A stretch of 39,991 nucleotides of DNA, from contig MGKE01000003.1 in the NCBI GenBank assembly GCA_001794635.1, forward strand, positions 1 through 39,991, given 5' to 3'. The position numbers and the translations under genes were made by a program. This document shows, in pieces, positions 825-29,636 of the stretch. A model generated the notes under the pieces. It saw nothing but the letters and a program-made list of their open reading frames with translations. It ran no database searches and was not told the DNA's origin. Each line of letters starts with the position of its first letter. The first letter of the stretch is position 1. This DNA is from Candidatus Yanofskybacteria bacterium RIFCSPLOWO2_01_FULL_39_28 (GTDB lineage Bacteria; Patescibacteriota; Minisyncoccia; 2-02-FULL-40-12; GWA2-44-9).

Positions 825-1949
825 TTAAATAATATCAAAAATTGATAAGGTTTTTAGCTCATCTGCATAATTTTTTATCATTTCTTTCTTTTCAAATTGT
901 TTGGCAATTTCCAATCCAGCCGTAGAAAGTCTTTTTCTTTCCTCCTCATTTTCTAAAAGTTCCTTGGTTTTCTTGGCAATGTCTTCAACATTCCAGTCTA
1001 TTATTTTAACTACGTTTTTTTTGGCAAAATCAGGCATTAGACCGACATTGGTTGCCAAGACCGGCAGGCCGCAAGCCATGGCCTCAAGAACAACTCTCGG
1101 TCCGCCTTCGTTGTATGAAGACATAACCATAACCTTTGATTGATTTAATAATTTAGCAACCTCTTGAGAGTCCTTGGCCCAACCATGGACAGTAATTTTC
1201 AATTTCCAATTTTCAATTTTAAATTTAATATCTTCAAAGAGACTACCTTTTCCTACAATAATTGCCCGTAATCCTGTTTTTTTCACAATTTCAAGAAACA
1301 ACTCAATTCCTTTATTTTTCTCTAAACGACCAACAAAAATTAAGTCATATTTCTTCTCCAGATCCATCGGTTTAAAAACTTCCGAATCAATGTAGATGGA
1401 TGGAATATAAATTATTTTATCTTTTGGTACTCCCGCTTTAACTAAAAACTCAGGAGTTTGTTTTTGATTTACAACCCTAACCGCTTTAGCTTTTAAACCA
1501 AAAAGGTTCCAGTATAACTTCCAGACAAACAAATTCGCATAGATTTTTTCTTTTGAATTTGCCGCTTTTGGGTAACCGGGAATATGGTGAAATTCTAACA
1601 TATAAGGAACTCGTATCTTCTGCCACAATAATCTGGCCCCGATACCGTTATAAAAAGGCGGGTAATCTTGGACGGTCATTAGATCAAATTTTTGTTCTTT
1701 GTATAGTTCTGTCCCCTTCTTCAAAAACCAAAACGGGTGAAAAACCAACGGCCATGGAGAGGTATGAATATAAACATTTCCAAATAAACTTGTCGCTTGT
1801 TGCTTGTCGCTTATCGCTATTTTGGGACTTATTATATCAATTCTGGTCCAGTATTTGCTAAATTCTTCCAAAGTATTATAAAATGCTCCCTTCTTGCCAG
1901 AAGCGAGATCCTTTGCGCTACCAAGACCAGTTATCATTAATAATTTCAT
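825..1949 (-). CDS. Glycosyltransferase family 4 (GT-B)
   Basis: C-terminal GT4 pattern (LIFVGRLEKNKGIELFLE, SSYNEGGPRVVLEAMACGLPVLAT). Confidence 0.9.
   Translation of the reverse strand: MKLLMITGLGSAKDLASGKKGAFYNTLEEFSKYWTRIDIISPKIAISDKQQATSLFGNVYIHTSPWPLVFHPFWFLKKGTELYKEQKFDLMTVQDYPPFYNGIGARLLWQKIRVPYMLEFHHIPGYPKAANSKEKIYANLFVWKLYWNLFGLKAKAVRVVNQKQTPEFLVKAGVPKDKIIYIPSIYIDSEVFKPMDLEKKYDLIFVGRLEKNKGIELFLEIVKKTGLRAIIVGKGSLFEDIKFKIENWKLKITVHGWAKDSQEVAKLLNQSKVMVMSSYNEGGPRVVLEAMACGLPVLATNVGLMPDFAKKNVVKIIDWNVEDIAKKTKELLENEEERKRLSTAGLEIAKQFEKKEMIKNYADELKTLSIFDII
1789..1818. repeat. Heptamer array CTTGTCG-type inside a GT4 CDS
   Basis: CTTGTCG CTTGTTG CTTGTCG CTTATCG CT; translated SDKQQATS. Confidence 0.85.
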
Positions 1950-1974
1950 TGAAGCTAAACAGCTTATAAACTAA

Positions 1975-3114
1975 TCAGCTTACCAGCTGCTTTATTGTCT
2001 CTTGAATCATTCTATCAAGCCCGAATTTTTTGACTGTTTCTAATCCCTTTTCTAAAAACTCTTCTCTCAATTCAGAATTTTGCCACAGTCCCTTTATCGC
2101 CTCAATCAAATTAAATTCATCATTATATTTAACCAAAAAACCATTTTCTCCTTGATCAATAACCTCTTTGTTTCCACTTATAGCGCTGGCCACAACTGGA
2201 ACACCGGCTGCCATCGCTTCCAAGATTTGATGAGAAAACCCTTCATAACCGCTGTTTAAAACAAAGATGTCCGAGGCAGCAAAATAAACAGCTAAATCTT
2301 CTTTTGATTTCTTACCCACAACATAAACCTTCCGATCTAAATTCATGTTCTTAACCATTTGTTCAAGGTTTTTTCTTTCTGGTCCATCGCCGACAATTAC
2401 TAACCTGAAAAATTGGTTTATTTCAAGAAGTTTAGGCATTACCTTAATCAACATTTTAAACCCTTTCCACGGCATTAAGCGACCGCAAGATAAAATTATA
2501 TTGCCGGGAATACCTATTTTCTTCCTGGCCTCCTCTTTTGGTAAATCTGATTTTTTAAAATCAACTGCATTATAGACAATATGTATCTTATTTTCCTGAA
2601 CCCCCCAACCCATAACTATTCTTTTTAAATAGGCCGATGGAACAATAACTTTGTCGGCCTTTTTACATGTCTTAACTTGAACCGAGTGAAGAAATCCTCG
2701 TTTTGCAATTTTTTGAAAATCATCTATAAGAAGTGATGTTTTGCCTTTAGCCACAGCCATCTCCCAGGCGTAATCACCGACAATTCTGACAATAAATTTA
2801 TTTTTAAAAACTTTGGCCCAAAATGAAGCTGATCGTCCAACGCTCACCGCATTTAACGCTAAAATAGTGTCTGATTTACGAACCAAGAAAAACAACCGAC
2901 AAAAATAAATAAAATGCCTTAAACCTTTGGGCCACTTTCTTGAAACTTTGGTTAATTTATATACTGTCTGCCTATCAGAACTATTTGAAGAATAAGTAAT
3001 AACTTGAACCTCAAATCCTTGCTTAACTAAAGCATTAGCCATTATTTCACCGTATGTTGCCGGTCCACCAATATCTGGTGGAAAAATTCCTGTTGCTATA
3101 AGTATATGCATCAC
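1975..3114 (-). CDS. Glycosyltransferase family 4
   Basis: N-terminal GIFPPDIGGPATYGE; C-terminal LSCGRLMPWKGFKMLI, NSGYEGFSHQILEAMAAGVPVVAS. Confidence 0.92.
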   Translation of the reverse strand: MMHILIATGIFPPDIGGPATYGEIMANALVKQGFEVQVITYSSNSSDRQTVYKLTKVSRKWPKGLRHFIYFCRLFFLVRKSDTILALNAVSVGRSASFWAKVFKNKFIVRIVGDYAWEMAVAKGKTSLLIDDFQKIAKRGFLHSVQVKTCKKADKVIVPSAYLKRIVMGWGVQENKIHIVYNAVDFKKSDLPKEEARKKIGIPGNIILSCGRLMPWKGFKMLIKVMPKLLEINQFFRLVIVGDGPERKNLEQMVKNMNLDRKVYVVGKKSKEDLAVYFAASDIFVLNSGYEGFSHQILEAMAAGVPVVASAISGNKEVIDQGENGFLVKYNDEFNLIEAIKGLWQNSELREEFLEKGLETVKKFGLDRMIQETIKQLVS

Positions 3115-3115
3115 T

Positions 3116-3808
3116 TTATTTAAATAAATTAAATCTAACTATGTGCCAAATTGCTGCCAATCCGTCCTTCCAGTTAATCTTTTTACCCTCTTCATAGGTT
3201 CTACCTTTGTAAGATATCGGTATTTCAGCAACTCTTAAATTCATTTTACCTATCCAAGAAGTTAGTTCTGGATCAATACCAAATCTTTTAGATACTAAAT
3301 TTGGATGAATTTTTTTGATAGCTTCTCCTGAAAAAACTTTATAACAAGTATATATATCATTGAGTTTAACTCCGCTAAGAATATTGGAAAAATTATTCAA
3401 AAACCTGCTGAATAAATAGCCGTGCTTATAAATAATTTTGTTATTTTTTGATTCAAGAAAACGAGCTCCATAAACGGCATCGGCTTCACCGCTAATTATG
3501 GGTTTGATTAGAGCTGTGTAGTCTTGAGGGTTATACTCCAAGTCGGCATCTTGAATAATTACTAAATCGCCAGTCGCCTCTTCAAATCCACGTTTTACAG
3601 CTACTCCTTTGCCTTGGTTTTTGTCCAAAAATAAAACTTTGTGTTTGTTGTTATAGCTGGAAAGTATTTCCCTGCTTCTGTCAGAAGAACAATCATCAAC
3701 AAAAATAAGCTCTTTTTCAAGAGGCAGATCAACCCCTTCTACGGCCGCAACTAAAGCTGACAGGGTTTTTTCTTCGTTATAAACCGGGATGATAATAGAT
3801 ATTTTCAT
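3116..3808 (-). CDS. Glycosyltransferase family 2 (dolichyl-phosphate-mannose synthase-like)
   Basis: MKISIIIPVYNEEKTL, FVDDCSSDRS, IIQDADLEYNPQDY. Start placed at the internal ATG at 3808 (ORF track 3847); overlaps the next CDS by 32 bp. Confidence 0.92.
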   Translation of the reverse strand: MKISIIIPVYNEEKTLSALVAAVEGVDLPLEKELIFVDDCSSDRSREILSSYNNKHKVLFLDKNQGKGVAVKRGFEEATGDLVIIQDADLEYNPQDYTALIKPIISGEADAVYGARFLESKNNKIIYKHGYLFSRFLNNFSNILSGVKLNDIYTCYKVFSGEAIKKIHPNLVSKRFGIDPELTSWIGKMNLRVAEIPISYKGRTYEEGKKINWKDGLAAIWHIVRFNLFK

Positions 3809-4961
3809 ACTGTTTGGAAATTTTATCCCAATCATACTTTTCTTCAACTAATAAGCGACTGTTTTTTATGATTTGCTGTCTAAGTGTGTCGTTTTCAAAA
3901 ATGATATTTATTTTTGAAGCGATATCACTCGGGTCAAGCGTACAAAATAAACCGGTTTTCCTGTCTTCTAAAAAATCAGGAATTCCGCCGATTTTTGTAG
4001 CAATAATAGGGATACCAGCAGCCATTGCTTCAAGAAATGAAATTCCCAATCCTTCTGAACGTGATGGCCGAACAAAGACATCTGATATTTTTAAATACAA
4101 AGGTAACTCCAAATTATTTACTGCACCAGTAAAAATAACCTTACTTTCTAAATTTAAACTTTTAACTTTAAACTTTAAACTTACTAAAAGCGGTCCGTCA
4201 CCAACTAATAATAACTTGTAGTTACTTGTTACTTGTCGCTTGTCGCTTGTCGCTAGAATATAAATTGCTTCAATCAGCAAATCTATGCCATTTTTAGGAA
4301 CTAACCGTGAAGAACTAATAATGACCTTGTCATCGGCTTTTATGCCAAGCTTATTTTCTAAACCCGCCATATCGCCATAACTGAACTCTCTTGCAAACAT
4401 CTTTGGATCAACCCCATTTGGAATCAGTTCAACCTGCAAGCTTGGCTTAATTTTAAAAATATAATTTTTTAAGTAATTGCTTATGGCTGTAGCCCGATCG
4501 ATTTTCTTAATTATTAACTTTCTAAAAAAATTAATTAAAAATCCCTGCTTTTCAAGCTCCTTACCCTCTTGCATTGTAATAATAAACGGCAATTGGGGAT
4601 AAAAAAACTTTAAAAGCCATCCGGCTCCAGCTGCTCCAGATGCCTGAAAAGCGTGAATGAGTTTATAATTATTTTGTTTAATTAGGGACTTAGCTTTAAA
4701 AAAAATTGCTAGGGGCAGGAAATTTTTAGGAAGCAGGCCTTTCGTTAAACTAAAAAAACCACCGACCCGAAAAATAGAAACATTACCATCAATTTGATGT
4801 TTCAGGGACTTTTTATCTAATCTGGCGGTTATAAGGTCAAATTCAAAATCATTAATCCGGTCAGTGATATTTTTAATAGCCAACTCTGATCCACCAACAT
4901 GGGGCAGATAAGCAGTAGACAAGATTAGAATTTTGGGCTTCTGGGTTGATTTTTCCTCCAT
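3777..4961 (-). CDS. Glycosyltransferase family 4
   Basis: STAYLPHVGGSELAI, SSSRLVPKNGIDLLIEA, RPSRSEGLGISFLEAMAAGIPIIAT. Confidence 0.92.
   Translation of the reverse strand: MEEKSTQKPKILILSTAYLPHVGGSELAIKNITDRINDFEFDLITARLDKKSLKHQIDGNVSIFRVGGFFSLTKGLLPKNFLPLAIFFKAKSLIKQNNYKLIHAFQASGAAGAGWLLKFFYPQLPFIITMQEGKELEKQGFLINFFRKLIIKKIDRATAISNYLKNYIFKIKPSLQVELIPNGVDPKMFAREFSYGDMAGLENKLGIKADDKVIISSSRLVPKNGIDLLIEAIYILATSDKRQVTSNYKLLLVGDGPLLVSLKFKVKSLNLESKVIFTGAVNNLELPLYLKISDVFVRPSRSEGLGISFLEAMAAGIPIIATKIGGIPDFLEDRKTGLFCTLDPSDIASKINIIFENDTLRQQIIKNSRLLVEEKYDWDKISKQYENIYYHPGL
4213..4255. repeat. Heptamer array (TTACTTG/TCGCTTG) inside a GT4 CDS
   Basis: acttgtagttacttgttacttgtcgcttgtcgcttgtcgctag; translated LATSDKRQVTSNYKL. 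Confidence 0.9.
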
Positions 4962-4987
4962 TTTCTGGCATTATAATAGCATAAACA

Positions 4988-6184
4988 ATGTCCGACATCA
5001 ATCAGAATTATAAAGCAGATTTAGGCCCCAAAAAGAGGGTTTTATTTATAATTACCCAATCCGAAATGGGCGGCGCCCAGAGATTTGTTTTTGAGGTAGT
5101 TTCCCGTTTAAACAAAGAAAAATATAACGTGTTAGTCGCAGTTGGATCAGACGGTGGGGGCGAATTCTTGAAACAATTGGGTTCAGCTAATATTCCGAAT
5201 AAGACCATAAATTCATTAAAACGAAATATAAGTCCAATTCAGGATTTCAAGGCAATATTTGAAATAAGAAAACTTGTGAGCGAATTTTGTCCTGATACTT
5301 TTTTTCTAAACAGCTCCAAGGCCGGCTTCATTGGCTCCCTGGCCGCCAAGTTACAAGTTACAAGTTACAAGTTACAAGTCATATACCGCATCGGTGGTTG
5401 GTCTTTTAATGACCCGTGGCCAACATGGAAAAAGAAGTTTTGGTTAATATTGGAAAAAATTAGCGCTCCCTGGAAAGATATTATCATTGTCAATAACAAG
5501 CATGACCTAGATCAGGCCAAAACCCTAGGCATTAAGCCCCGTGGCCAAATTTTATTAATTCATAATGGAATTGACACTTATAAACTTGGGTTACTGCCAA
5601 AAGAAGAAGCAAGATTGAGGTTGTTTGAAAAAATAGCCAAATACTCCGGCAAAATTTTCCAAGCAGAAACTATTGTTGGGACAATTGCCAATTTATATCC
5701 AACCAAGGATATACTTTCGCTGGTTAGAACAGCGGAATATTTCAAAAAAAATAATTCGGTTGTTTTTATTGTTATAGGAGATGGGTCTGAAAGGCCGAAT
5801 ATAGAAAAACTAATAAAAGGACTGGACCTAGAACACAAAGTATTGCTCCTAGGTCAGTTAACTGATGCCAAAAAATATTTGCCCGCTTTTGATATATTTG
5901 TTTTACCCTCAGTTAAAGAAGGTTTCCCTTGGTCTTTAATTGAGGCGATGGCTGCCAAACTCCCGGTTATAGCCACCCGGGTCGGCGCAATTGAAGAAAT
6001 AATTGACGACCAAAAAAACGGTTTGATTATTGAACCAAGAAATCCAAATCAAATTGCTGACAAAATAAAACTTATTCTATCTGATGATAGAATAAAACAA
6101 GAACTTGGTATTCAAGCTCACCAAAAAATATTATTTAAGTTCTCTTTGGAAAAAATGTTTCATGAAGTTGAGGAGCTTCTTTAG
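4988..6184 (+). CDS. Glycosyltransferase family 4
   Basis: TQSEMGGAQRFVFEV, IGDGSERPNIEKL, LPSVKEGFPWSLIEAMAAKLPVIAT. Divergent from the neighbouring genes. Confidence 0.92.
   Translation: MSDINQNYKADLGPKKRVLFIITQSEMGGAQRFVFEVVSRLNKEKYNVLVAVGSDGGGEFLKQLGSANIPNKTINSLKRNISPIQDFKAIFEIRKLVSEFCPDTFFLNSSKAGFIGSLAAKLQVTSYKLQVIYRIGGWSFNDPWPTWKKKFWLILEKISAPWKDIIIVNNKHDLDQAKTLGIKPRGQILLIHNGIDTYKLGLLPKEEARLRLFEKIAKYSGKIFQAETIVGTIANLYPTKDILSLVRTAEYFKKNNSVVFIVIGDGSERPNIEKLIKGLDLEHKVLLLGQLTDAKKYLPAFDIFVLPSVKEGFPWSLIEAMAAKLPVIATRVGAIEEIIDDQKNGLIIEPRNPNQIADKIKLILSDDRIKQELGIQAHQKILFKFSLEKMFHEVEELL
5351..5378. repeat. Heptamer array TTACAAG x4 inside a GT4 CDS
   Basis: ttacaagttacaagttacaagttacaag, preceded by AAG; translated KLQVTSYKLQV. 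Confidence 0.95.
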
Positions 6185-6191
6185 ATTGCTA

Positions 6192-8650: not shown

Positions 8651-9961
8651 TTAATTGCTTGGTTCAACTTTATAAATTAAGCCAGATGCATCGTCAGAAA
8701 TATATAATGCATTATCGGGACCGAACTTTAAGTCAACTGGCCGACCATAAATTTCTTCTTTACTCTGATCTAACCAACCGGAAATAAAACTAACGGGTTC
8801 CCGAGATAAGACGTTACCTTTTTCATCTAAATCATATCTGACAACTTCATAACCCACAGGCGCACTTCTGTTCCATGATCCATGAAATGCAACCAATAAA
8901 TCCCCCGCCCACTCTTGAGGCCATTTAGAGACTTGCCCTGAGCTTGTCGAAGGGATAAATGCCAATCCTAATGGCGCAGAATGGGCTTGAATTTCAATAA
9001 CTGGCGATTCGGTTTTACTACAATCATTAGTCACATCAATTCGCTCCCATTTATCAGGGTTAAATGTTTTATCTTTAATCTTGTTGCCGTAACAGAAAGG
9101 CCAACCAAAACGCCTGGCCCCAAATTCGTGCTCTGATCCGGCAACTTTTACAATATTAATTTCGTCTGGCGGCAGGTTGTCACCCAAGTTATCCCGTCCC
9201 ATTTCTGTTGCCCATATCTCACCGGTTACTGGATGAAATGTAAAAAATACTGAATTCCTTAATCCACCGGCAAATTCAGCCGTATAACTACCTTTGGCAT
9301 CTGACTCCAGTATCGCCCCCCTCTTCCATGAGCTTTCTTCGCAAACATCACAAGATGAACCGACGCTTATATATAATTTTATGGGGTCAATTGTCGCCAA
9401 ACCCAAGATCGGTTTTTCCCTGAAATTTGCTCCAAAAGATATAGTTCTTGTCACATGACCCCCATCAGCTGGAAGAGTAGCAATATTTTCTCCCGTGCTT
9501 GAAGTTAGTTGGCCAGTATCCACGTTATAGAGATATCGTGCCACTCGTTGCGTTTCAGCAATATATAAATAAGTTGTGTTTGTCTTGTCATCCTTATAAA
9601 AATCGAGACCATGAGGCGATCTTAGACCCTCAATCAAGGCGTGTTTTATTTCAAAACCAGAACCCTCCAAGACACTGACTCTTCCGGCCTTGGTTTCACT
9701 TACCAGCATCCGCCCCCTTGCATCAAATAAAATAACCCGAGAATTTTCCAATCCTTTTACGGCAACAGAGATTTTAAAACCCTCCGGAACATTCAAAAAC
9801 GACAACTTCTCATCTCTACTTGGAGTTACAATCTTGGGCTCATTAAGTTCCGGTACATTATAACCAATCAACTTCTTAACCAAGCTAAAATCAGTCCAAA
9901 ACAAATAAACGCCGACGGCGATAAATATTAAAAAAATAAAGACCAATAAGGCTTTTTTCAT
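8651..9961 (-). CDS. PQQ-dependent sugar dehydrogenase-like (GSDH / L-sorbosone dehydrogenase family) with N-terminal membrane anchor
   Basis: LNVPEGFKISVAVKGLENSRVILFDARGRMLVSE, HVTRTISFG, YISVGSSCDVCEE, EMGRDNLGDNLPPDEIN, AFHGSWNRSAPVGYEVV, KFGPDNALYISDDASGLIYKV. Confidence 0.88.
   Translation of the reverse strand: MKKALLVFIFLIFIAVGVYLFWTDFSLVKKLIGYNVPELNEPKIVTPSRDEKLSFLNVPEGFKISVAVKGLENSRVILFDARGRMLVSETKAGRVSVLEGSGFEIKHALIEGLRSPHGLDFYKDDKTNTTYLYIAETQRVARYLYNVDTGQLTSSTGENIATLPADGGHVTRTISFGANFREKPILGLATIDPIKLYISVGSSCDVCEESSWKRGAILESDAKGSYTAEFAGGLRNSVFFTFHPVTGEIWATEMGRDNLGDNLPPDEINIVKVAGSEHEFGARRFGWPFCYGNKIKDKTFNPDKWERIDVTNDCSKTESPVIEIQAHSAPLGLAFIPSTSSGQVSKWPQEWAGDLLVAFHGSWNRSAPVGYEVVRYDLDEKGNVLSREPVSFISGWLDQSKEEIYGRPVDLKFGPDNALYISDDASGLIYKVEPSN
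8932..8954. repeat. Short dispersed-type repeat inside CDS (CCCTTCGACAAGCTCAGGGCAAG on the coding strand), encoding PSTSSGQV
   Basis: cttgccctgagcttgtcgaaggg; recognised as a sequence recurring as STSSGQ-type insertions in many environmental genomes (from memory, not searched). Confidence 0.6.
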
Positions 9962-12638: not shown

Positions 12639-14447
12639 TTAATTTACTTCTGAAATCCTAATCATTTCTTCTATTTCTGGGGCTTTGTTACCCAACTCTC
12701 TGGCTTTTTTTAAAAAAATCAACGCTTTTTCATAGTCCCTTTTCACGAAATAAGCCGTTCCCACAACAGTTACAGCATCAACTCCTAGAGGTTTAGATCC
12801 AAAATATTTATCTATAATTGCCAAGGCCTCGTCCGGTTTGCCAATAGTTATTTGAATATAAGCGTACCTTAATACCTGTTCTGTTGTGGCATAAAAATTG
12901 ATGACTTTAAGGAAATGCCGGCCAGCTTCTTCAAAACGACTTTGTTTAAGATACAATTCGGCTAAATTAATATCGGAAACAATCATGTCCGGATTTAGTT
13001 CCAAAGATCTTTTGAATTTCTCTTCAGCCAAAATATAATTACCGTCATGATCAGCAACAATACCAAGCAAATTCTGCAAAAGAGCATTGTCCTCATAAAT
13101 ACCTTTTGATATCTCAAGCTGTTCTTTGGCTTTATCCCATTCATTGCTTCGCATATGGATTCCAGCCAGAGCGTTGCTGGTAATTAAGCCGTCAGGCGAC
13201 TCGGCCAAAGCGGCAGTAAACAGGGTTCTGTGGCTTTGCCAATCCTTATTTCTAATAAAAGTTCTGACACCATAAAAACAAATGAGGCCGATGAGGACTA
13301 AATAGCCGAGTTTTCTAACAACTCCAATTTTTTCAATGAGTTTAGCCAGCCAGAATGAAGAAATAATCGCAAACCCTAAAGACGGAAAATACATTAGTCT
13401 TTCCCCCATAATCGTCCCGATTGGAAATATAAGATTTGAAATGATTAAATAAGGAAACAAGAAAATCACAACTCCTAAAGCAAGTATACTTTTTCTGGTT
13501 CTAGGTAAAACCAGGGCCATTATCAGAATAAATAAGACCATGAGTCCTGTTATTGATTGCCAAGAGTTAAATAAATTAGTCACAACCTTAATTGTGTTAT
13601 AAGAATAGTCAGCCGATAAATTAATCGGCCACAATAATTTTTCCAAATACATGAAGAACACCTTAGTTGCAGTAAAAACCCTTACTGGCCAACCGACAAA
13701 TTTTAACTGGTTTTCAATAATTGTTGTGGTTATGTCACCAGTAAAATACCTGCCGAGAGCAATATATCTCAAGACTGAATAAACCGCTAACGGTATAGAA
13801 AAATATATAAATTTTATAACTGTGCTGTAAAACTTCTTTCCCAGCCAAAGCCATTCAATAAAGAACATCATCGGCAAAATCATCAAAGCCGACTCTTTGC
13901 TTGCCAGAGCTAATAACAAAAAGATTCCTGCCAAGATTTTCCTGCCTTTAAGTGAAGAGTAAATCGTGAGTATAGACCAAAAGAAGGCCAACAATTCAGC
14001 CCGACCAACTATTGAAGTCACGGCTTCGGTATGTATGGGATGAAACAAAAATAAAATAAAAGACAGGAAAGCTATTCGTCCTGATTTCAAGAGATATTTA
14101 ACCAACAAAAAAACCAGAAAAGAATTAAGAGCATGAAGAATTATATTAACTATATGAAAACTGACCGGCGAAGAACCAAAAATAAAATGATTAAGCGCGT
14201 AAGAAGCCATGGTCAGAGGCCGATAAAGACCTGTTTTGGGCATATTTTGATGATATGGGTAAACCCAGAGACTAAAAAAATTATCCGGATTGGTTAAATC
14301 GCCTCGGTTTTGGATTACCGTCACGTCGTCAAAAACAAACTCTCCGCTTATTCCGTTACCGAAAACCAAAAAAGATAAAACAATTGAAAAAACAAAAACC
14401 AGCCACAATTCGTGTTTTTTTATAAAATTTATAAACTTAAAATTCAT
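12639..14447 (-). CDS. GT-C/TMTC-like polytopic membrane protein with C-terminal TPRs (putative protein O-glycosyltransferase)
   Basis: EFVFDDVTVIQNRGDLTNP, YRPLTMASYALNHFIFG, FHIVNIILHALNSFLVF, then TPRs (GNYILAEEKFKRSLELNPDM). Confidence 0.85.
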   Translation of the reverse strand: MNFKFINFIKKHELWLVFVFSIVLSFLVFGNGISGEFVFDDVTVIQNRGDLTNPDNFFSLWVYPYHQNMPKTGLYRPLTMASYALNHFIFGSSPVSFHIVNIILHALNSFLVFLLVKYLLKSGRIAFLSFILFLFHPIHTEAVTSIVGRAELLAFFWSILTIYSSLKGRKILAGIFLLLALASKESALMILPMMFFIEWLWLGKKFYSTVIKFIYFSIPLAVYSVLRYIALGRYFTGDITTTIIENQLKFVGWPVRVFTATKVFFMYLEKLLWPINLSADYSYNTIKVVTNLFNSWQSITGLMVLFILIMALVLPRTRKSILALGVVIFLFPYLIISNLIFPIGTIMGERLMYFPSLGFAIISSFWLAKLIEKIGVVRKLGYLVLIGLICFYGVRTFIRNKDWQSHRTLFTAALAESPDGLITSNALAGIHMRSNEWDKAKEQLEISKGIYEDNALLQNLLGIVADHDGNYILAEEKFKRSLELNPDMIVSDINLAELYLKQSRFEEAGRHFLKVINFYATTEQVLRYAYIQITIGKPDEALAIIDKYFGSKPLGVDAVTVVGTAYFVKRDYEKALIFLKKARELGNKAPEIEEMIRISEVN

Positions 14448-16267
14448 TATTGTAATTCTTTTATAAGCTCCTCTATCAGCCTCCCTGTCTCTGGGTCAAG
14501 AGACGAATGTTTTAATCCTTCTTTTAAGTCAGTTAGGGCTTGCTCTTTATTATTAAGAGCAAGATAAACAAGGGCTGAATTATAATAAACACGGGGATTA
14601 GCGGGGATAAGGGTTTTTAATTTTTCTATATTCTTCACCGCCTCAACCAAATCACCCCGCTGAGCATAAATAACGGCTAAGTTTTGGTATGAGTAATAAA
14701 AATTAGGGTCAATTTCTATGGCTTTTTTGTATAATTGAATAGCTGTCTTAATATCTCCCCTAGCTTGAAAAATACTGCCTAGATTATAATACGGCTGGGC
14801 AAAAGTATTATCGCCTTCAGTCGCCTTCTGGTAATATATTTCGGCATTGTTAAAATCACCTTCATTGTAGTAAAAGTTTCCCAGATTATTATTAACTCTG
14901 GTACTTTTTGGTTCATATTTGAGAATATTTTTATAAAATTCCGCCTCATTACCCCATAATTTGTTGTGTTGGATGGATTGATAGGAGAAGAATGAGAAAT
15001 AGGCAACAACGGTAGTAAGTAGTAAGTAGTAAGTAGTAAGGTTTCTAGATTTTAAATAATCAAATAGCTTTACTAAATAATAAGAAATGATCAGCCAAAA
15101 GCCGACCATGGGCAGATACAACCAATGCTCATATATAAGAGCGTTAATCGGAGTAATACCGGAAACTGGTCCAAGAGCGATAAAGAACCAGGAAACGCCT
15201 AACAACCAAATTCTATAACTAGAATTTGGTTGTTGAATTTCTAATTTCAAATTTCTAATTTCTAAACGGTAGAAACGAACTAAAATATACAAAATACCAA
15301 CCAATACAGCCGCAACACCCCAAACCGGCCATTGAAATAAAGATGTATAAACCGTCGCACCCCTTTCCATGTGAAGCCCAAGCGGAACAATCAAAAGTTT
15401 CAAATATTCCCACAAAATGGAGAGAAAGGTGAATAATCTAACATGCACGTTTTCAGAATATAAGTTTTGTTCGGTGTAAAAATTTAATGTATTTATAAAA
15501 TTTAAAAGTGTCAGCCGTAATACACCATAGACAATAACTACAGCAAAATAAGGCCAAGTTTTAACTAGGCCCGTTTTAAGAGATTTGACAAAACGATCAG
15601 GCGATAAAACTGAAACGTAAAAAGCCAACGCAAGAACTGGAAATATAATTGCCGTTTCACGGCTTAGAAGACTAAAAATAAGAAAAAAAGTAGTAAGTAG
15701 TAAGTAGTAAGTAGTAAGGGATTTATTGGTAAAGTTGCCAGAGTTGTCTTTTACTGATTCGGATTTGTAAAAGAACAAGAGCGCCAAAAGCATAAACATT
15801 GTAACCAATAAATCACCTCGTCCAGAAATATAAGTTACGGCTTCAGTTTGAAGCGGGTGAACTAAGAAAAATAAAGCAACCAAAAAAGCAAGTGGGTTTC
15901 TTTTAAAAACCAGGCGAATCAGCCAAAACACGAGAATACTGTTAAACACGTGAATGTAGTTGCTAAGCAGATGATACAGTAGCGGTTCTACGCCGGATAT
16001 AGAATAATTAAGAGCAAAAGTAAAAAACAAAAAAGGTCTATAATAATTGCTCTGAAGCCCCACACCGGCCAAAGCACTATTAGAAAACCAAAATTTGATA
16101 TTATCCCAGCTTGTTGAGTGAACGAAATTATTGTTAATTATCCAATCGTCATCATCCCAAAACAGCTTGTTGTTTAAGTTAAATGAATAAACAAAGCTAC
16201 CGGCAACAATAAGAATTATAATTGGCAACCAAATATTTCTTAAAACTTTTACATTTTGAATTGTCAT
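14447..16267 (-). CDS. GT-C/TMTC-like polytopic membrane protein with C-terminal TPRs
   Basis: LFWDDDDWIINNNFVH, YYRPFLFFTFALNYSISG, HLLSNYIHVFNSILVF, then TPRs (GDFNNAEIYYQKATEGDNTFAQPYYNLG). Confidence 0.85.
   Translation of the reverse strand: MTIQNVKVLRNIWLPIIILIVAGSFVYSFNLNNKLFWDDDDWIINNNFVHSTSWDNIKFWFSNSALAGVGLQSNYYRPFLFFTFALNYSISGVEPLLYHLLSNYIHVFNSILVFWLIRLVFKRNPLAFLVALFFLVHPLQTEAVTYISGRGDLLVTMFMLLALLFFYKSESVKDNSGNFTNKSLTTYYLLLTTFFLIFSLLSRETAIIFPVLALAFYVSVLSPDRFVKSLKTGLVKTWPYFAVVIVYGVLRLTLLNFINTLNFYTEQNLYSENVHVRLFTFLSILWEYLKLLIVPLGLHMERGATVYTSLFQWPVWGVAAVLVGILYILVRFYRLEIRNLKLEIQQPNSSYRIWLLGVSWFFIALGPVSGITPINALIYEHWLYLPMVGFWLIISYYLVKLFDYLKSRNLTTYYLLLTTVVAYFSFFSYQSIQHNKLWGNEAEFYKNILKYEPKSTRVNNNLGNFYYNEGDFNNAEIYYQKATEGDNTFAQPYYNLGSIFQARGDIKTAIQLYKKAIEIDPNFYYSYQNLAVIYAQRGDLVEAVKNIEKLKTLIPANPRVYYNSALVYLALNNKEQALTDLKEGLKHSSLDPETGRLIEELIKELQ
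15012..15040. repeat. Heptamer array GTAGTAA x4 inside a TMTC-like CDS
   Basis: gtagtaagtagtaagtagtaagtagtaag; translated LTTYYLLLTT. Confidence 0.95.
15201..15234. repeat. Perfect 14-bp-stem hairpin inside a TMTC-like CDS, abutting the heptamer array
   Basis: AACAACCAAATTCT-ATAACT-AGAATTTGGTTGTT. Confidence 0.9.
15236..15263. repeat. Heptamer array AATTTCT/AATTTCA x4 inside a TMTC-like CDS
   Basis: AATTTCT AATTTCA AATTTCT AATTTCT; translated RLEIRNLKLEI. Confidence 0.9.
15690..15718. repeat. Second GTAGTAA x4 array in the same TMTC-like CDS
   Basis: gtagtaagtagtaagtagtaagtagtaag; translated LTTYYLLLTT. Confidence 0.95.
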
Positions 16268-16294
16268 TTTAAATTTTGACTTTTAAATTTTAAA

Positions 16295-18262
16295 TTACTT
16301 AAAATATTTATTCAAAAATTCTCTTGCCTGTTGGTTATTCTTATCAATTTCTAATGCCTTTATAAACAACGTCCTAGCCTCATCCAGATGGCCTAAATTC
16401 ATGTTAATCACCCCGAGAATATAGTAATATTGGCTATCTTTCAATCCTGAGTCAATGGCCTTTCTGATATTCTCGTCCGCCAGTTTTTGGTTTTCCATAT
16501 CGGTATGATAAGCATAGACAAAACCCTTATAAAGATATGGACGTGGAGCTTGTGGATCCAGTTTTATAGCTTCGTCGGCAAAATAAACAGCCGCCTCTCT
16601 CCAACTTATTTTATAAAAAAGCAGGGATAAAGTGATATTAAGATTAAACTTGTCTGAATTTGAATTTTTGACGTTTTCAATGGTTTTATCTATTACATCT
16701 GTTTCTGAGATGGCAAAGTTGGATATAATTTTTTCGTTGCTTTTAATATTTTTAACCAATATAATCACGTTTTCATTTATATAAACAATCCGCCAATTAG
16801 GATCATGGGTTATATTCCCCAAAAAAGCTTCCCCCCAAGGAGTGGCATCAGTATAGGCAAAGAATATTAAGTTGATGCCGTATTTTTCTGAAAATTCAGC
16901 CCATTTTTCTTTGCTTTCTTGCATTGGTTTATATGTTTTATTAAAAAACTCCACCGAATATGCTTCCGGCCTATTATCAACAAAAACCTTCTCTTCGGGC
17001 AATTGCCACATCAAATAACCGCCGGTATCAAAATTATTAAACATTGGCCCTTTAATTTTGTTGTCCTTGATAAAGTTAACCGCTCTTTTAAGTCCGTTAG
17101 GAACAGAGAAACCAAAAATTTTAGAATGGCCTTCTTTTTTATAATAAGAGTTACTAGCCACAAATAAAATCATAAAAATTAGAAACACAATAACTCCCAA
17201 CTTAAAGCCATAATTGACTCGCTCTGCTCTCACACTGGTCTTTGTTTTTTTAAAGGCATCAGTTAACAAGATCGCTAAAACAGGAAAAGAAGCTAAGGCA
17301 TATAAGGGCAGATTGCGAAACATTTTAAACCCGGCATAAATAAAGAAAGCCGACACAAGAATTTCAAACAACCGTTGTTTGGCCTTCTTTACGGTTAATA
17401 AAAAAGCAAGAGCAAGTACTGCCACGGATAGCTTAAAAATAAAGACCGACAAATTAAATCCAAAAAAACCGGACAAAAAAGCCAGAGTTTGGTTTTCAAT
17501 AATGCTATAACCATATTCTTTGAGTATATTAAAAGGCAAAAGAGCCCCCTGAAATCCTGCCGGGTTAGCTAGGGTTGCTAAAATAATTAAAAAGAGAATA
17601 AAGAATGGTTTTGATTTTTGATAATTTGAGTTTTGATATTGTTTAGAATTTAGAGTTTGGGATTTAGAGTTTATTTTTTTGTCTATTAAAAAGAACAAAA
17701 AAATAAGTGGTCCTATGAAAAAGTATATGTGCAGATTAACCCACAGAAGTTGGGCCAAGGGTAAAAACCATAAATAGTAATCGGTATTTTCGTGTTTTGA
17801 TTTAAATAAAGCAAATAGGAAAAATGACAATATGGCGAAACTGAATATCTCCGGTCTTACTTCTGTCCGAGAAATAAATATTAAAATTGAAAGAATAAAC
17901 GATATTGTAATAGGCCAAAAGGTGGCCTGTTTTTTAGCAATAAAAAACAGCAACAGAAATGATGCCAAGATAACAAATACTTTAAGCAGAATTAAGCCGG
18001 TAAATCCTGCTAAATTATAGACGCCTAAAAATATAACTTCGCTTAACCAGTGATGGTTGGTAAATGAAAAATCTGGCTCGGTATAAGAAAACAGGTTTGT
18101 TTTTGGAACTTCCTTTATCTGCCAAATTATTTCACCGACCTTTAAATGACGGCCTATATCCTGGCCGATTGAGTCAAAGTTGTGGACTAGAAAAACAGCC
18201 AAAAGGCCGAAGAGGAGAATAAAAATTATACCATTAAGGAAGTACGACGACTGTTTTTCCAT
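16295..18262 (-). CDS. Polytopic membrane GT-C-like protein with C-terminal TPRs
   Basis: FDSIGQDIGRHLKVGEIIWQ...NHHWLSEVIF, multiple TM segments, TPR-like end (GHLDEARTLFIKALEIDKNN). Start set at MEKQSSYFLN (ORF track 18289). Confidence 0.75.
   Translation of the reverse strand: MEKQSSYFLNGIIFILLFGLLAVFLVHNFDSIGQDIGRHLKVGEIIWQIKEVPKTNLFSYTEPDFSFTNHHWLSEVIFLGVYNLAGFTGLILLKVFVILASFLLLFFIAKKQATFWPITISFILSILIFISRTEVRPEIFSFAILSFFLFALFKSKHENTDYYLWFLPLAQLLWVNLHIYFFIGPLIFLFFLIDKKINSKSQTLNSKQYQNSNYQKSKPFFILFLIILATLANPAGFQGALLPFNILKEYGYSIIENQTLAFLSGFFGFNLSVFIFKLSVAVLALAFLLTVKKAKQRLFEILVSAFFIYAGFKMFRNLPLYALASFPVLAILLTDAFKKTKTSVRAERVNYGFKLGVIVFLIFMILFVASNSYYKKEGHSKIFGFSVPNGLKRAVNFIKDNKIKGPMFNNFDTGGYLMWQLPEEKVFVDNRPEAYSVEFFNKTYKPMQESKEKWAEFSEKYGINLIFFAYTDATPWGEAFLGNITHDPNWRIVYINENVIILVKNIKSNEKIISNFAISETDVIDKTIENVKNSNSDKFNLNITLSLLFYKISWREAAVYFADEAIKLDPQAPRPYLYKGFVYAYHTDMENQKLADENIRKAIDSGLKDSQYYYILGVINMNLGHLDEARTLFIKALEIDKNNQQAREFLNKYFK
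17642..17676. repeat. Heptamer array TTTAGAG-type x5 inside a membrane GT CDS
   Basis: TTTAGAA TTTAGAG TTTGGGA TTTAGAG TTTATTT; translated NSKSQTLNSKQ. Confidence 0.8.
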
Positions 18263-18872
18263 CACATTGTTTCTCAAAGACTTTGACATTACCGCTGGCG
18301 GTTACGAAATTGCCTTTATCATCAACTAAACGGCCGTATTGAATTTTTGCTGTGAATTCATATGTCTTAAATTTTGGATTTTCCGGTAAGACAATGCTTA
18401 GAAGACTTTCTCCGTTAGGAAGAGGCATTTTAGAAAACAGATTAGGCCCAACGGATATATCATCACTGGGAGTTATTGTCCATAAAATATTTCTTGCCGG
18501 ATTATCAACTCCGGTATAAGTAAATAATGCGCCTTGGTGACTATATAGATCTGGTCCAAGAAACTTAATTTCTCCTTCTAGTTTACAGGTGGCATTATTT
18601 AAAAGAAACTCCCACGGAACAGGCCGATCATAAAAGACATTGCCACTTCCTGTAGGCATAGGCACAGGCACACTTGTCAGACCAGGTTTTTTGGTCGGCT
18701 CTGGCGACGACGATCCGGTTGGCTTCGGACTTGTTAAATCAGGCGTATTTGTCGGCGAAAATATTTGCCGGTTTGAGGACCAAAATCCACCAAAATAAAC
18801 AATAGAAAAAACTGCTCCAACTAGAAAAATTAATAAAAATATTTTATTTTTGTGTGTAACCATAATCGTCAA
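18234..18872 (-). CDS. Hypothetical membrane-anchored protein with Pro/Thr linker
   Basis: N-terminal TM, TPDLTSPKPTGSSSPEPTKKPG linker, about 120-aa soluble domain. Confidence 0.65.
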   Translation of the reverse strand: MTIMVTHKNKIFLLIFLVGAVFSIVYFGGFWSSNRQIFSPTNTPDLTSPKPTGSSSPEPTKKPGLTSVPVPMPTGSGNVFYDRPVPWEFLLNNATCKLEGEIKFLGPDLYSHQGALFTYTGVDNPARNILWTITPSDDISVGPNLFSKMPLPNGESLLSIVLPENPKFKTYEFTAKIQYGRLVDDKGNFVTASGNVKVFEKQCDGKTVVVLP

Positions 18873-24742: not shown

Positions 24743-24946
24743 TGTCACCAGTTATGATTGTATCAAAAATAGTGTAAGAAATGACACCATCACACATCAC
24801 CAAGTCTTATAACTTAAATTAAATGTGTTTTAAATAAACTGTTTAATTTAGGTGACATTTATAAGTTATTAATATTGTCACCAATAATTATGATGACAAA
24901 TATATTTGTCATCATAAAAAATATGTGTCACCAATTTTGTCACCAA
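24743..24946. promoter_or_regulatory. Cluster of TGTCACC(AA) motifs (operator/iteron-like)
   Basis: TGTCACC on + at about 24744, 24876, 24926 and 24938; GGTGACA at 24851; TGACACC at 24782; ATGACAAAT/ATTTGTCAT within the 24888-24917 palindrome. Confidence 0.65.
24888..24917. repeat. 30-bp perfect palindrome
   Basis: TTATGATGACAAATA|TATTTGTCATCATAA. Confidence 0.9.
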
Positions 24947-24953
24947 AACAAAA

Positions 24954-25568: not shown

Positions 25569-25575
25569 ATTAAGT

Positions 25576-26307
25576 TTATTTGTAAATTTTTTCTAAATAA
25601 GTTTTGAAAAAGTTTTCTATGATTTCTGTTTTTATTAGATTTACCGCTCCGTTTTTTAAATAAACCATGCCCCGTAATCGGCCATCCTTATCTGAAGCGC
25701 CAAAACCAAAAAGATATTGATTCGGAATAGTGTCTACTAGGACGGAGGTATCTGTTGCCTGACTTATAATTCCTTTTTGAGAAACGGTGATTGGTTTGGA
25801 TAGGTTCAGCGTCTTGCCAATAACTAATATTTCTTGGCCGCTTTTATAATTAGCCGAGTTTAATTCGGCTATACTGGAATTGAGAACAGCTGTCTTTAGA
25901 AGAAGAAGGCGGATTTTTGGATCCAGGTCAACCAGTTCGCCTTTGACAATTTTGTCATCATAGAAAATTTGATAGACACTTTCTTTAGGCCCCCACAAAT
26001 CAGTTGTAGTGACGATAAGTCCATCTGATGAAATAATAATGCCGCCACCTTGTCGTATAACACGATCGTTGCTAATGGTCTGGATACCAACTAAGCTGGG
26101 TGAGGTTTTTGTGACAATTTTTTCCCATAACTCAGGGTCGGGAACTAGTGTTGAGGTATTGACTAAAACTTCAGTTTTAGGATCAATCGTTCCCGATATG
26201 TTGGCTCCAAAAATTACGGAATTAATCGTAAACAAGAACCAAGCACCAATTATACCTCCTAAAATAGCAGTAAAAAATAATTTTAAAAACGATTTTTCCA
26301 TAAACAA
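25576..26307 (-). CDS. HtrA/trypsin-like (S1C) fold protein, apparently catalytically inactive
   Basis: N-terminal TM; SLVGIQTISNDRVIRQGGGIIISSDGLIVTTTDLW resembles the HtrA GSGVIIS.DGYI.TN.HV strand but lacks the His; IRLLLLKT replaces DLAVLKI; no GNSGGPL. Confidence 0.7.
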   Translation of the reverse strand: MFMEKSFLKLFFTAILGGIIGAWFLFTINSVIFGANISGTIDPKTEVLVNTSTLVPDPELWEKIVTKTSPSLVGIQTISNDRVIRQGGGIIISSDGLIVTTTDLWGPKESVYQIFYDDKIVKGELVDLDPKIRLLLLKTAVLNSSIAELNSANYKSGQEILVIGKTLNLSKPITVSQKGIISQATDTSVLVDTIPNQYLFGFGASDKDGRLRGMVYLKNGAVNLIKTEIIENFFKTYLEKIYK

Positions 26308-26377
26308 AAACAGGTTTAAATAAGACTATTAAAATATCATAGGGTAGTATAGGTTAATAAAAATTTTGAAGCAATAG

Positions 26378-26399
26378 ACCTGCCTGCCGGCAGGCAGGT
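26378..26399. repeat. 22-bp GC-rich perfect palindrome
   Basis: ACCTGCCTGCCGGCAGGCAGGT. Confidence 0.9.
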
Positions 26400-26405
26400 A
26401 AACTT

Positions 26406-27431
26406 TCAATGAGAGTTGAAAAGTTCTTTGGCCGTTGACCAAAATTCCTCATGACCTTTAAGTTTCATCCAGTACCACCATTCGGCGCCCCAAAGGTAAA
26501 AAGTATCAAAACCAGTTTTAGAAGAAAACTCTAGTATTTCTTTAAATTTATCAATTCCCATTCTTTCAAGTTGAGTTTCAACCGAAGTATTAACTATTGA
26601 CTGCAAGAGCCAGGGTTCAGTTGAAAGCTCTATAACAATAGCTGGTTTTTCATTTAAAAACATTTCTGTTAAATTGCGCTTTATTTTGAAAAAAGTCGGT
26701 GTTATTGGATAACGAAAAGGGCCAATCATTTGATTCCAAACGTATAAATACATGCTTGTACCAAAAACATCTCCTTGTTTATAAGCTTTAAACCAGCGGC
26801 CAAACTCTCCGCTGTCGGTTATAATAATCGGCCTTGTTGGGTCAAGTTGTTTTACAAAACTTATTTCTTTTTTCAAAAATTCCTCATCAAGAGAACCGCA
26901 AGTTGACCGGCTGAAAAAAGTCAGGTAAGGTTCGTTTTCAACCTGCCAATATTTAATATTGTCATAATTTTTGTAGCGGTTAACCACGGTTTCTATATAT
27001 TTTAAAATCCTTTCTTGTTTGTATTTTTTCTGTTCACTTTCTACTTTCAACTTTCCACTTTCAGCTTTCAACCATTCCGGTTCGTGGCATTCAGGCCAGC
27101 CGGGTAGTCGACGACCAACAGCCAAAACAACTGAAGCTCCCATCTTTTGGGCTTCTTTAATTTGAAAATCTAGTTCTTCAAAATTATATTTGCCGTCTTC
27201 TGATTCAGTTAATGGCCAATGAGCTGAAAATCTAAAATTTCTAACTCCAAGATCGTTTAAAATCGCCAGATAAGTTTCCTTCCAGTCAAGCTCTAATTCG
27301 TCAGTATGAAAACGACTGAAAGAAACACCATAAATTGGCTCATTAGATGCTGAATTGTCTAAAGATAGAAAAAATAAACAACCCAAAATTACCACGGCAA
27401 AGACTATAAAAATTTTGAATTTTTTACCCAT
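26406..27431 (-). CDS. Clan-A (TIM-barrel) glycoside hydrolase-like protein, membrane anchored
   Basis: NFRFSAHWPLTESEDGKYNFEELD, KYWQVENEPYL (acid/base motif), PAIVIELSTEPWL (possible nucleophile strand), N-terminal TM. Confidence 0.8.
   Translation of the reverse strand: MGKKFKIFIVFAVVILGCLFFLSLDNSASNEPIYGVSFSRFHTDELELDWKETYLAILNDLGVRNFRFSAHWPLTESEDGKYNFEELDFQIKEAQKMGASVVLAVGRRLPGWPECHEPEWLKAESGKLKVESEQKKYKQERILKYIETVVNRYKNYDNIKYWQVENEPYLTFFSRSTCGSLDEEFLKKEISFVKQLDPTRPIIITDSGEFGRWFKAYKQGDVFGTSMYLYVWNQMIGPFRYPITPTFFKIKRNLTEMFLNEKPAIVIELSTEPWLLQSIVNTSVETQLERMGIDKFKEILEFSSKTGFDTFYLWGAEWWYWMKLKGHEEFWSTAKELFNSH
27035..27069. repeat. Heptamer array CACTTTC-type x5 inside a glycoside hydrolase CDS
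   Basis: CACTTTC TACTTTC AACTTTC CACTTTC AGCTTTC; translated LKAESGKLKVES. Confidence 0.9.
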
Positions 27432-28305
27432 GATTATTCAAAAATAACAACAAAAAACCTATTCCCGTTAAGATGATACCAGTTGTTTTTGAAATTAATA
27501 TTTTTTTGCTTAACTTTTCTTTAACTTCGGTTATCTTTTTGCCAAAAATTACTGCCAACAAGAAAATAAACAAAAATTTAACACCTAAAAGTGCGTTAAC
27601 CAAAGAAACGTTTCCAGAATTTATTGATAAATAGAGCATGATAAAACCGATACCGGCAAGAAACTTATTAAACACGAACACAGATTTGGATTTACGAGAA
27701 ACATGCTTCAAAGAAAACATTACTTCTTGACGAACCTCTCTAGATAAAAGGGAACAAAAGGCGGCCCCGATAAAACCGATTCTTGTCCAAAATAAGCCGT
27801 TAATAAAGCTGGACTCATTAAATAAATGCTTCATTAAAACATAGTAAACTCCTCCAAATAAACCAGCCAAAACCGCAAAAATAAAAACTTTTTTTTCAAT
27901 TTGTCCCAATAAGTAAATCCCCAAAACAAAAAACACAAAAGCCAGTGAACTAATCAAAGAAAGAGTGTCTTTTAGAATAATAACTGAAAGTATATAAGTA
28001 AAAACAGCGGTAATAGTGCCCACTTGAGTAGCCGCCACAGATATATCGCTTTGCTTGATTACTTTGTAAAAAAATATCAGGCCGACAAAAAAAGCTGCTC
28101 CCGAAGAAACAGCGATCAAGAAGTAACTTAAACCCTGCCATGAAACCCCAAAGGGTATAAGAAGCAGGGAAGCAATGCTTAAAATGGAAACGCCAAAAGC
28201 GTAGGCATGATATTTTGGAATCTGTCCCACCAGAAGATATTTATCAACAACAAAAACAACAGCATTTATAAAATAAGCTACTAAAGCTAAATATAACCAT
28301 AACAT
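27424..28305 (-). CDS. EamA/DMT-family transporter
   Basis: 10 TM segments, AATQVGTITAVFTYILSVIILKDTLSL and VNALLGVKFLFIFLLAVIFGKKITE half-repeats. Confidence 0.85.
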   Translation of the reverse strand: MLWLYLALVAYFINAVVFVVDKYLLVGQIPKYHAYAFGVSILSIASLLLIPFGVSWQGLSYFLIAVSSGAAFFVGLIFFYKVIKQSDISVAATQVGTITAVFTYILSVIILKDTLSLISSLAFVFFVLGIYLLGQIEKKVFIFAVLAGLFGGVYYVLMKHLFNESSFINGLFWTRIGFIGAAFCSLLSREVRQEVMFSLKHVSRKSKSVFVFNKFLAGIGFIMLYLSINSGNVSLVNALLGVKFLFIFLLAVIFGKKITEVKEKLSKKILISKTTGIILTGIGFLLLFLNNHG

Positions 28306-28325
28306 ATAAAAATTATATCAGGTGT

Positions 28326-29636
28326 TTAAAGTTCCAGCGAGTTAGTTTGGCAAATTTTAGCATATTCATATGCCGATGGGCGAATATGACGTTCAAAAGT
28401 TTTATAGTCAACTTCAACCAGGCCAAATCTTGGGCCAAAACCATGATGCCATTCAAAATTATCTAAAAGCGACCAATATAAATATCCCAGAACATCTACA
28501 CCATCTTGGACCGCTTTCCAAGACCAGTATAAATGATCTTTTATAAATTTTTTTCTTTTTTGGTCAGTCCGATCGGAAATCCCATTTTCGGTTATAAAAA
28601 TCGGTTTTTTGTATTTTTTCAAATCCAAAAGGCAGTTATAAATACCAGGGGGACATAATTCCCAACCCATATCTTCATTGATATCCTGTTTAGGCACAAC
28701 CTCACTTTTTTGACCCAAACCAGTCCTTCTGTCCATATGATAATAATTTAGGCCTATGAAATCGTAGTAGGGGGTAGCTTGATCTAAAAAATAGAAGTTT
28801 CTTAATTGTTTATATTTCCTCCTCAACCAAGTTGTGAAAATATTTTTAGTATCCGGAACAAAAACATTACTCTCTACTATTCCCACCATTACATTATGCG
28901 ACGTAACGTCGGGGTCTCGAGGTTCAACCTTTTTTGAGATCCAAGGTTGAACCTCTTTATTAAAACCAGAAGAAGGGGAGTTGTTGTATATTTTTTTTAT
29001 CTCTTTATAAGCTTCGGTGTGGGCTCTGACAATATTGCGATTAGCCATCCTCCATTCAAAAATGTTCTTGTGTTGCGGTGGCCAAAAGCCCTTTAAATAA
29101 GCAAAGCTACTATATACAGTAGTCGCCTCGTTAAAAGTTATCCACAGCCCCACCTGATCTTTTAAGGCCGAAACTACAACCTTAATAAACCTTCTGAACA
29201 GCTCCGGAGAATCAGGATTCAACCAACCGCCTTTTTCGGCAAACCAGATTGGATTAGTAAAATGCCAAAGAGTTATCATCGGCTCTATTCCCCTCTCCTT
29301 TAATGCATTGACAACATTAATATAGTGTTGTATTTCGTTTTGATTGAATTTCCCCTCTTCCGGTTCTATTCGCGACCACTCAATTGAGAAGCGGTGAATG
29401 TTCTGATTTAATTTTTTAACAATATCAAAATCTTCTTCGTACCGATTGTAACTGTCACAAGCCTTACCAGAAATAAAATTATCGGGATTTAAACCTTTTA
29501 ACTTTAAACTTTCCACTCTTAACTTGGACACCTCCCACTCCGACCAATCATTATGGTTATCCCCCTCTACCTGATGAGCTGAAGTAGCGCTCCCCCATTT
29601 AAAATTTTCTGGAAATTTAAAAACTGACATTATCAA
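28326..29636 (-). CDS. Glycoside hydrolase family 1 (beta-glucosidase-like)
   Basis: FPENFKWGSATSAHQVEG, RFSIEWSRIEPEEG, WITFNEATTVYS, FIGLNYY, PIFITENGISD, GYLYWSLLDNFEWHHGFGPRFGLVEVD. Confidence 0.95.
   Translation of the reverse strand: MIMSVFKFPENFKWGSATSAHQVEGDNHNDWSEWEVSKLRVESLKLKGLNPDNFISGKACDSYNRYEEDFDIVKKLNQNIHRFSIEWSRIEPEEGKFNQNEIQHYINVVNALKERGIEPMITLWHFTNPIWFAEKGGWLNPDSPELFRRFIKVVVSALKDQVGLWITFNEATTVYSSFAYLKGFWPPQHKNIFEWRMANRNIVRAHTEAYKEIKKIYNNSPSSGFNKEVQPWISKKVEPRDPDVTSHNVMVGIVESNVFVPDTKNIFTTWLRRKYKQLRNFYFLDQATPYYDFIGLNYYHMDRRTGLGQKSEVVPKQDINEDMGWELCPPGIYNCLLDLKKYKKPIFITENGISDRTDQKRKKFIKDHLYWSWKAVQDGVDVLGYLYWSLLDNFEWHHGFGPRFGLVEVDYKTFERHIRPSAYEYAKICQTNSLEL
28919..28955. repeat. 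Palindromic insertion inside the GH1 CDS
   Basis: GAGGTTCAACCTT (28919-28931) / AAGGTTGAACCTC (28943-28955), perfect 13-bp stem, 11-nt loop. Confidence 0.9.
29496..29523. repeat. Heptamer array TTTAAAC-type x4 inside the GH1 CDS
   Basis: TTTTAAC TTTAAAC TTTCCAC TCTTAAC; translated KLRVESLKLK. Confidence 0.85.

Follow-up and report, generated by a model that had tools for sequence, protein, structure and literature searches.

The 39,991-nt contig MGKE01000003.1 of Candidatus Yanofskybacteria bacterium RIFCSPLOWO2_01_FULL_39_28 raises the question of why tandem arrays of 7-bp units lie inside its protein-coding genes, and how such arrays could have been written there. We analyzed this whole contig (the window) with the rest of its genome (G000; a draft assembly of 815,413 bp in 15 contigs, 86% complete and probably derived from a metagenome) and with relatives represented by one genome per species, among them the congener G001 (array count from a 384-kb sample) and G010, which belongs to a different genus. 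The nearest named relative found for MnmA was a Candidatus Yanofskybacteria metagenome-assembled genome (61% identity). Arrays were detected with Tandem Repeats Finder (TRF) and a lag-7 scan, whose score is the number of matches over the positions compared, and the chance baseline for exact runs came from order-3 and order-4 Markov simulations. We found that arrays of this class, short and repetitive, abound in this order of Patescibacteria, either solo or as inverted pairs. They occupy loops and helix starts that tolerate them, also in essential proteins, and at some sites the units have all changed in concert with position, length and phase unaltered.

Period-7 arrays in the genome and at orthologous sites

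A reading of the window from its letters alone (the sequence-only reading) had proposed a genome-wide excess of period 7, translated tracts in length-variable loops, and conservation of the period rather than of the sequence. All three were borne out. The mismatch-tolerant (fuzzy) search of G000 returned 54 arrays at period 7 against 5, 7 and 6 at the neighboring periods 6, 8 and 9, where there was no comparable excess, and at most 7 at any other period from 4 to 13, while the excesses at periods 14 and 21 were harmonics of 7. Exact lag-7 runs of at least 18 matches numbered 16 in the genome (3 in the window), every other period from 2 to 30 gave at most 3, and the order-3 and order-4 simulations gave none at lag 7. 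The arrays are mostly 30-36 bp long with 4-5 units, in coding and intergenic sequence alike, and 31 canonical units are present among the 54 arrays. The earlier claim of several heptamer sequences was right in that the units are many, but heptamers do recur inside the genome (AAGTAGT in six arrays, the highest count for any unit, AAGCGAC and AATCTAG in five each, AAAGTAG in four). (TTACTAC)3 is present in just 3 of 384 genomes of the class, G000 included, and at six loci in G000. Full-length AAGTAGT arrays have a common start phase, following a C, and start and end phases coincide inside unit families of G000 (P = 5e-5). Moreover, pairs of arrays sharing a unit made up 3.5% and 2.4% within G000 and G001 versus 0.97% between them (label permutation < 2e-4).

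The hosts in G000 beyond the window include ribosomal protein L21, TsaD (two arrays), MnmA (three arrays), MiaA (two arrays), MurE, IleRS, ProRS and GatB, so the finding is larger than the sequence-only reading saw. An additional host, a cysteine desulfurase-like protein (C14:139082-140338), was recognized by sequence alone, and in three proteins of G000 a signal-peptide-like hydrophobic stretch consists of a heptad array. A RuvA array was dropped since the aligned peptide, GGIGYRV, is a native conserved motif, and the AlphaFold model of MnmA was too poor for use (mean predicted local distance difference test score, pLDDT, 54.7), its secondary structure being loosely consistent with loop or turn placement. 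The IleRS (L040 8469-12002; C14:68466-72002) is 1178 aa long, and its catalytic parts are separated by a histidine-phosphatase / phosphoglycerate-mutase-like domain (approximately residues 495-664).

At the corresponding positions, relatives have short loops or arrays of other units and do not carry the tracts as ordinary conserved sequence; period-7 tracts are found there in many relatives belonging to the same order. Across 161 orthologous segments, which are phylogenetically non-independent, lag-7 identity was 0.432 where the null gave 0.277 (z = 17), and lags 6, 8 and 9 showed lesser excesses; 31 of the segments reached at least 0.6 versus 2.2 expected, and nearly all units were distinct. 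The L21 loop has 11 residues from an AAGCGAC array in G000 versus 6 residues in its three congeners (+15 nt, +5 aa), G010 has an AAGAGAC array of equal length at the same site, and most of the 29 relatives compared have no array of this kind. At site B of the Agl23-like protein, (CTTACTA)4CT in G000 stands opposite (CTTTTTG)4CT in G001, both perfect, as the same 30-bp block in the same position and phase, and at the second site a perfect array faces a decayed one; the net length changes at these sites were 0 and +1 aa. In a GT-C protein of the close species G030 and G033, GGCGTTT x3 stands opposite GGCATTT x3, and the adjoining loop has a heptad array in one species and a palindrome in the other. 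The MnmA hairpin loop contains AAAAATC in G000 and G010, AAAAAGC in G001 (the contrast seen at site 2), inverted heptad pairs in G021, G022, G029 and G034, and 9-nt-period pairs, palindromes or nothing in other relatives. Copy number varying by three units, a pattern that the sequence-only reading had proposed to look for, is not the usual event, since in many cases length changed by a net amount other than a multiple of 7 aa (L21 +5 aa, TsaD site 1 about +6 aa, Agl23-like 0 and +1 aa).

Inserts of other types were seen in the same loops. MnmA loop 2 of G003, G023, G030, G033 and G040 has 9-nt-period inverted pairs (e.g. ELDKLDELYKL) where others hold heptads. Palindromic inserts (AAGGTTCGACCTTG, GACATCGGATGTC) are present in loops of relatives whose genomes have RAYT genes (L047/L048 of G030/G033; MnmA, TsaD), and these are possibly repetitive extragenic palindromic (REP) elements inside genes.

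Tracts of the window

Eleven tracts in seven or more unrelated coding sequences (CDSs) had been listed for the window by the sequence-only reading. Nine are clear 7-bp arrays in open CDSs, two (17642-17676 and 29496-29523) are weak or decayed, and an array at 16266-16296 had been overlooked. The clear arrays have five host CDSs of about three families (three GT4, a TPR/GT-C protein and a GH42-like protein), and weak tracts are present in two further CDSs (a second TPR protein and a GH1 enzyme); these hosts, three GT4 paralogues and two TPR-bearing GT-C-like proteins among them, are not all unrelated.

The GT4 CDS at 825-1949 has a GAAAATT-type array at 1194-1226 (minus strand, peptide KFKIENWKLKI, lag-7 23/26) and an AAGCGAC array at 1789-1818 (minus strand, peptide IAISDKQQATS, lag-7 20/23). 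The second GT4 CDS (3777-4961) has an AAGTTTA array at 4150-4182 (minus strand, peptide VSLKFKVKSLNL, lag-7 23/26) and a mosaic of AAGTAAC and AAGCGAC units at 4221-4254 (minus strand, peptide LATSDKRQVTSN, lag-7 25/27), and the third (4988-6184) a perfect AAGTTAC array at 5347-5379 (plus strand, peptide AKLQVTSYKLQV, lag-7 26/26). Three arrays on the minus strand belong to the GT-C/TPR CDS 14447-16267: a perfect one (coding strand CTTACTA, lag-7 22/22) at 15012-15040, at the start of a likely transmembrane helix where relatives have other heptamers; an AATTAGA array in a loop at 15236-15265 (lag-7 21/23); and a second perfect one (coding strand CTTACTA, lag-7 24/24) at 15688-15718, in a second loop or helix start. 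A palindrome at about 15199-15235 (AACAACCAAATTCTA..TAGAATTTGGTTGTT) directly adjoins the array 15236-15265, and the same layout of palindrome and array is found in TsaD (C14, about 104480-104507). The overlooked AT-rich array at 16266-16296 (minus strand, lag-7 20/24) spans the GT-C CDS start codon. In the TPR/GT-C-like CDS 16295-18289, a decayed heptad tract extends over 17609-17676 (minus strand, peptide SKSQTLNSKQYQNSNYQKSKP, TRF scores 35-51), its part 17642-17676 having a lag-7 score of only 18/28. The GH42-like CDS 26406-27431 has an array of GAAAGTN units at 27036-27070 (minus strand, lag-7 24/28), where 9 aa are missing from the closest homologue found (L156). The weak or decayed tract at 29488-29523 (minus strand, lag-7 15/21 over 29496-29523) is near the N-terminus of the GH1 CDS 28326-29636.

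Repeats of other kinds are also present in the window. The sorbosone-dehydrogenase-like CDS 8651-9961 (minus strand) contains CCCTTCGACAAGCTCAGGGC at 8933-8950 (peptide PSTSSGQ), a dispersed element of a different type known from many genomes, and a similar peptide lies in the L21 loop of the relative G015. Four features lie close to one another at 33615-35716 and may be what is left of an integrated element: an open reading frame (ORF) in which a 24-bp unit is repeated in frame (33724-33784), a second ORF resembling low-molecular-weight phosphatases, a recombinase-like third (35086-35655) and a tRNA (35644-35716). A tRNA was the sole known RNA family found in the window.

Known heptamer systems and distribution of the arrays

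Precedents exist for several features of these arrays. The long simple sequence repeats (LSSRs) of prokaryotes (Mrazek et al. 2007, as summarized in PMC4679880 and PMC4692102) have period 7 as the most abundant among units of 5-11 nt, for which polymerase geometry was offered as an explanation, and G000 resembles their heptanucleotide class in its excess over neighboring periods and the Markov model. Heptamer studies in Xanthomonas, Nostoc and Beggiatoaceae describe mainly intergenic arrays with one dominant unit per genome, and the periods said to occur in genes are multiples of three (PMC4679880, PMC4692102), whereas the G000 arrays lie inside essential genes, with many units per genome, uniform 4-5 copies and concerted replacement at orthologous sites. 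The heptanucleotide tandem repeats of cyanobacteria (short tandemly repeated repetitive sequences, STRRs) and the TAACTGA repeats of Beggiatoaceae have 2-6 copies at many loci, with one conserved heptamer placed mostly just upstream of start codons (PMC4679880), unlike the mostly coding, unit-diverse arrays of G000. The sequence-only reading had named heterocystous cyanobacteria as bearers of established heptanucleotide repeats; the excess is known broadly in prokaryotes rather than chiefly in cyanobacteria (PMC4692102, PMC4679880, PMC2700814).

In Geobacter metallireducens, Gmet_H4 is a dispersed element made of four tandem heptamers that occurs 49 times, in genes as well as between them and in some genes more than once, and the class-1/class-3 sites are inverted pairs built from five heptamers or from four octamers; a single consensus characterizes each family, and the families were interpreted as regulatory (PMC2700814). 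G000 likewise has 4-5 tandem heptamers at many genic and intergenic loci, but no single consensus heptamer; units vary by locus and species while site and period persist. The neuO gene of E. coli K1 has a translated AAGACTC repeat read through only at copy numbers divisible by three, and is phase-variable and non-essential, with 3-53 copies changing by slippage (PMC13001214). In contrast, the arrays of G000 are short and affect many essential genes, for which phase variation would be lethal, and phase-variable contingency of the neuO type is unlikely because of hosts such as L21 and IleRS. The Rickettsia palindromic elements (Ogata et al. 2000, as described in PMC10969869) are palindromic, roughly 150 bp long and defined by one consensus for each family, and lie in frame in unrelated genes. 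They share with G000 the tolerance of repetitive DNA in frame in many unrelated protein genes, but the arrays of G000 are 30-36 bp direct heptads with neither a palindromic core nor a common sequence. In relatives, the same loops do also hold palindromic inserts of a separate kind.

The congener G001 had 40 arrays, and period 7 stands alone there too. There were 23 arrays in 337 kb from 20 genomes of the family and order, 6 in 346 kb from 20 genomes of the rest of the class, and 8 in 1.47 Mb from 80 mostly unrelated named loci, with no period-7 excess over other periods in the last set. Array density differs strongly between genomes, and several family members had none in their sample. The unrelated gammaproteobacterium Thiotrichaceae UBA4486 (L241) has three heptad arrays in 21 kb, two of them apparently mutually inverted. 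No report of comparable arrays in Patescibacteria was found in the literature searched, whose coverage excluded most subscription journals.

Origin of the arrays and its meaning

We tentatively favor templated copying within and between arrays, tolerated in loops, as their origin, an account we find plausible without calling it probable. The concerted change of units at the same length suggests copying within arrays, and the units common to loci of one genome suggest copying between loci. Further, the +15 nt of L21 and the 0 and +1 aa of the Agl23-like sites point to overwriting rather than pure slippage. Templated copying would both write and rewrite arrays, with no length change required: within an array, transient misalignment of the strands by one unit would let a variant unit overwrite its neighbors, while between loci ectopic template switching would seed an array in a new loop and overwrite part of the old one. 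Selection would then remove every product that is out of frame, the sites being ones where almost any sequence is tolerated, and the arrays would need no cellular function.

Several points weigh against this account. No copying enzyme or intermediate was identified, the searches for a transposase, a reverse transcriptase and Ku having given no candidate, and templated copying leaves the choice of period 7 unexplained. In G001 the coincidence of phases failed to reach significance (P = 0.12). Inheritance and independent gain in tolerant loops are mixed in the excess of lag-7 identity at orthologous sites, which draws on non-independent orthologues. The L21 arrays of G000 and G010 are in a common phase although the congeners of G000 have no array, which could reflect parallel gain, transfer or loss. 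Among the candidates rejected, Ku-type end joining failed since Ku is found in only 1 of 25 genomes. A link with the Y-family polymerase (PF00817) was suggestive but concerned too few genomes to use: the only matches were in G004, G005 and G011, in whose small samples no array was seen, and there was none in G000, G001, G003, G010 or G029. Most array-bearing relatives are without it.

It is also conceivable, though we have considerable doubts, that arrays of 4-5 units are written, spread and rewritten in protein loops genome-wide by a copying process, dedicated or emergent, that has a 7-nt ruler. Replication slippage in place, in which the polymerase would impose a preference for 7-nt units (an idea credited to Mrazek and co-workers) and selection on frame and loop tolerance would follow, is unlikely in our view. 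The polymerase geometry invoked for the heptamer excess of many prokaryotes (as presented in PMC4692102 and PMC4679880) would suit it, the mosaic and period-14 arrays have a slippage-made look, and the net gains at MnmA site 1 (about 7-9 aa) and TsaD site 1 are near +21 nt. Plain slippage is nevertheless a poor fit because it predicts whole-unit length changes, single-unit steps would frameshift essential genes, and a number of net changes cannot be divided by 7, such as those of L21 and of the Agl23-like sites with their perfect arrays. Moreover, intergenic arrays are also 30-36 bp though free of frame constraint, and an identical unit with identical boundaries is found at distant loci of one genome.

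We consider it improbable that the arrays are the arms of a small non-autonomous mobile element resembling a miniature inverted-repeat transposable element (MITE) or a REPIN, with inverted pairs of 4-5 heptamers around a spacer, a transposase not yet recognized, and solo arrays as half-elements. Inverted partners within 120 bp were indeed in excess (found for 16 of 40 arrays in G001 and 9 of 54 in G000, with a null expectation of 1 in either genome), most coding arrays being solo, and the inverted heptad pairs of MnmA and the inverted pairs of G. metallireducens (PMC2700814) are of this form. A conserved inverted AT-rich element (core AAAATGACAATGTAAAAT with heptad arms), common to the congeners G000 and G001, is likewise present at several of their loci (L013 about 18553-18650, L017 8013, L030 9613, L010 10180, L080 12373, L084 11534). 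However, the unit diversity is so great that a sequence-specific transposase is hard to imagine, and several arrays overwrite sequence instead of adding to it. The RAYT/Y1 transposase was rejected as mobilizer, as no such gene (PF01797) was found in the 86% complete G000 or in G003, and none of the 20 RAYT loci examined had a heptad array.

It is very improbable that the arrays are written from a short repeat template by a reverse transcriptase or an enzyme like telomerase. Such a writer would agree with the constant period, the limited length and the end phases that arrays share, and reverse transcriptases are common in this order, but they occur in most relatives whether or not arrays were seen, the RVT_1 match is missing in the array-bearing G003 and present in G004 and G014 (no array in a 20-kb sample), and a dozen or more units per genome would require many templates. 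That the tracts are ordinary protein sequence or an artefact of assembling repetitive arrays in a draft of 15 contigs is already refuted at the level of these tests, as the arrays are shorter than ordinary short reads, keep their frames open, recur at the same sites with other units in independent assemblies, and are DNA-periodic in coding and intergenic sequence.

The arrays mean that repetitive DNA reshapes essential proteins, among them one of the ribosome and several enzymes acting on tRNA, and that its sequence is exchanged whereas site and period are kept. This pattern, the same site and often the same length with a different word, points to a DNA-copying process not yet known, and the cause of the bacterial heptamer excess, a long-standing question, becomes testable at known sites. 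If a process with a 7-nt ruler were true, it would be a new mode of concerted evolution and would generate loops de novo, with heritable site and period but a sequence that is not inherited. In automated annotation of Patescibacteria, array loops will resemble lineage-specific insertions, and both alignments and inference from structure can be misled by them.

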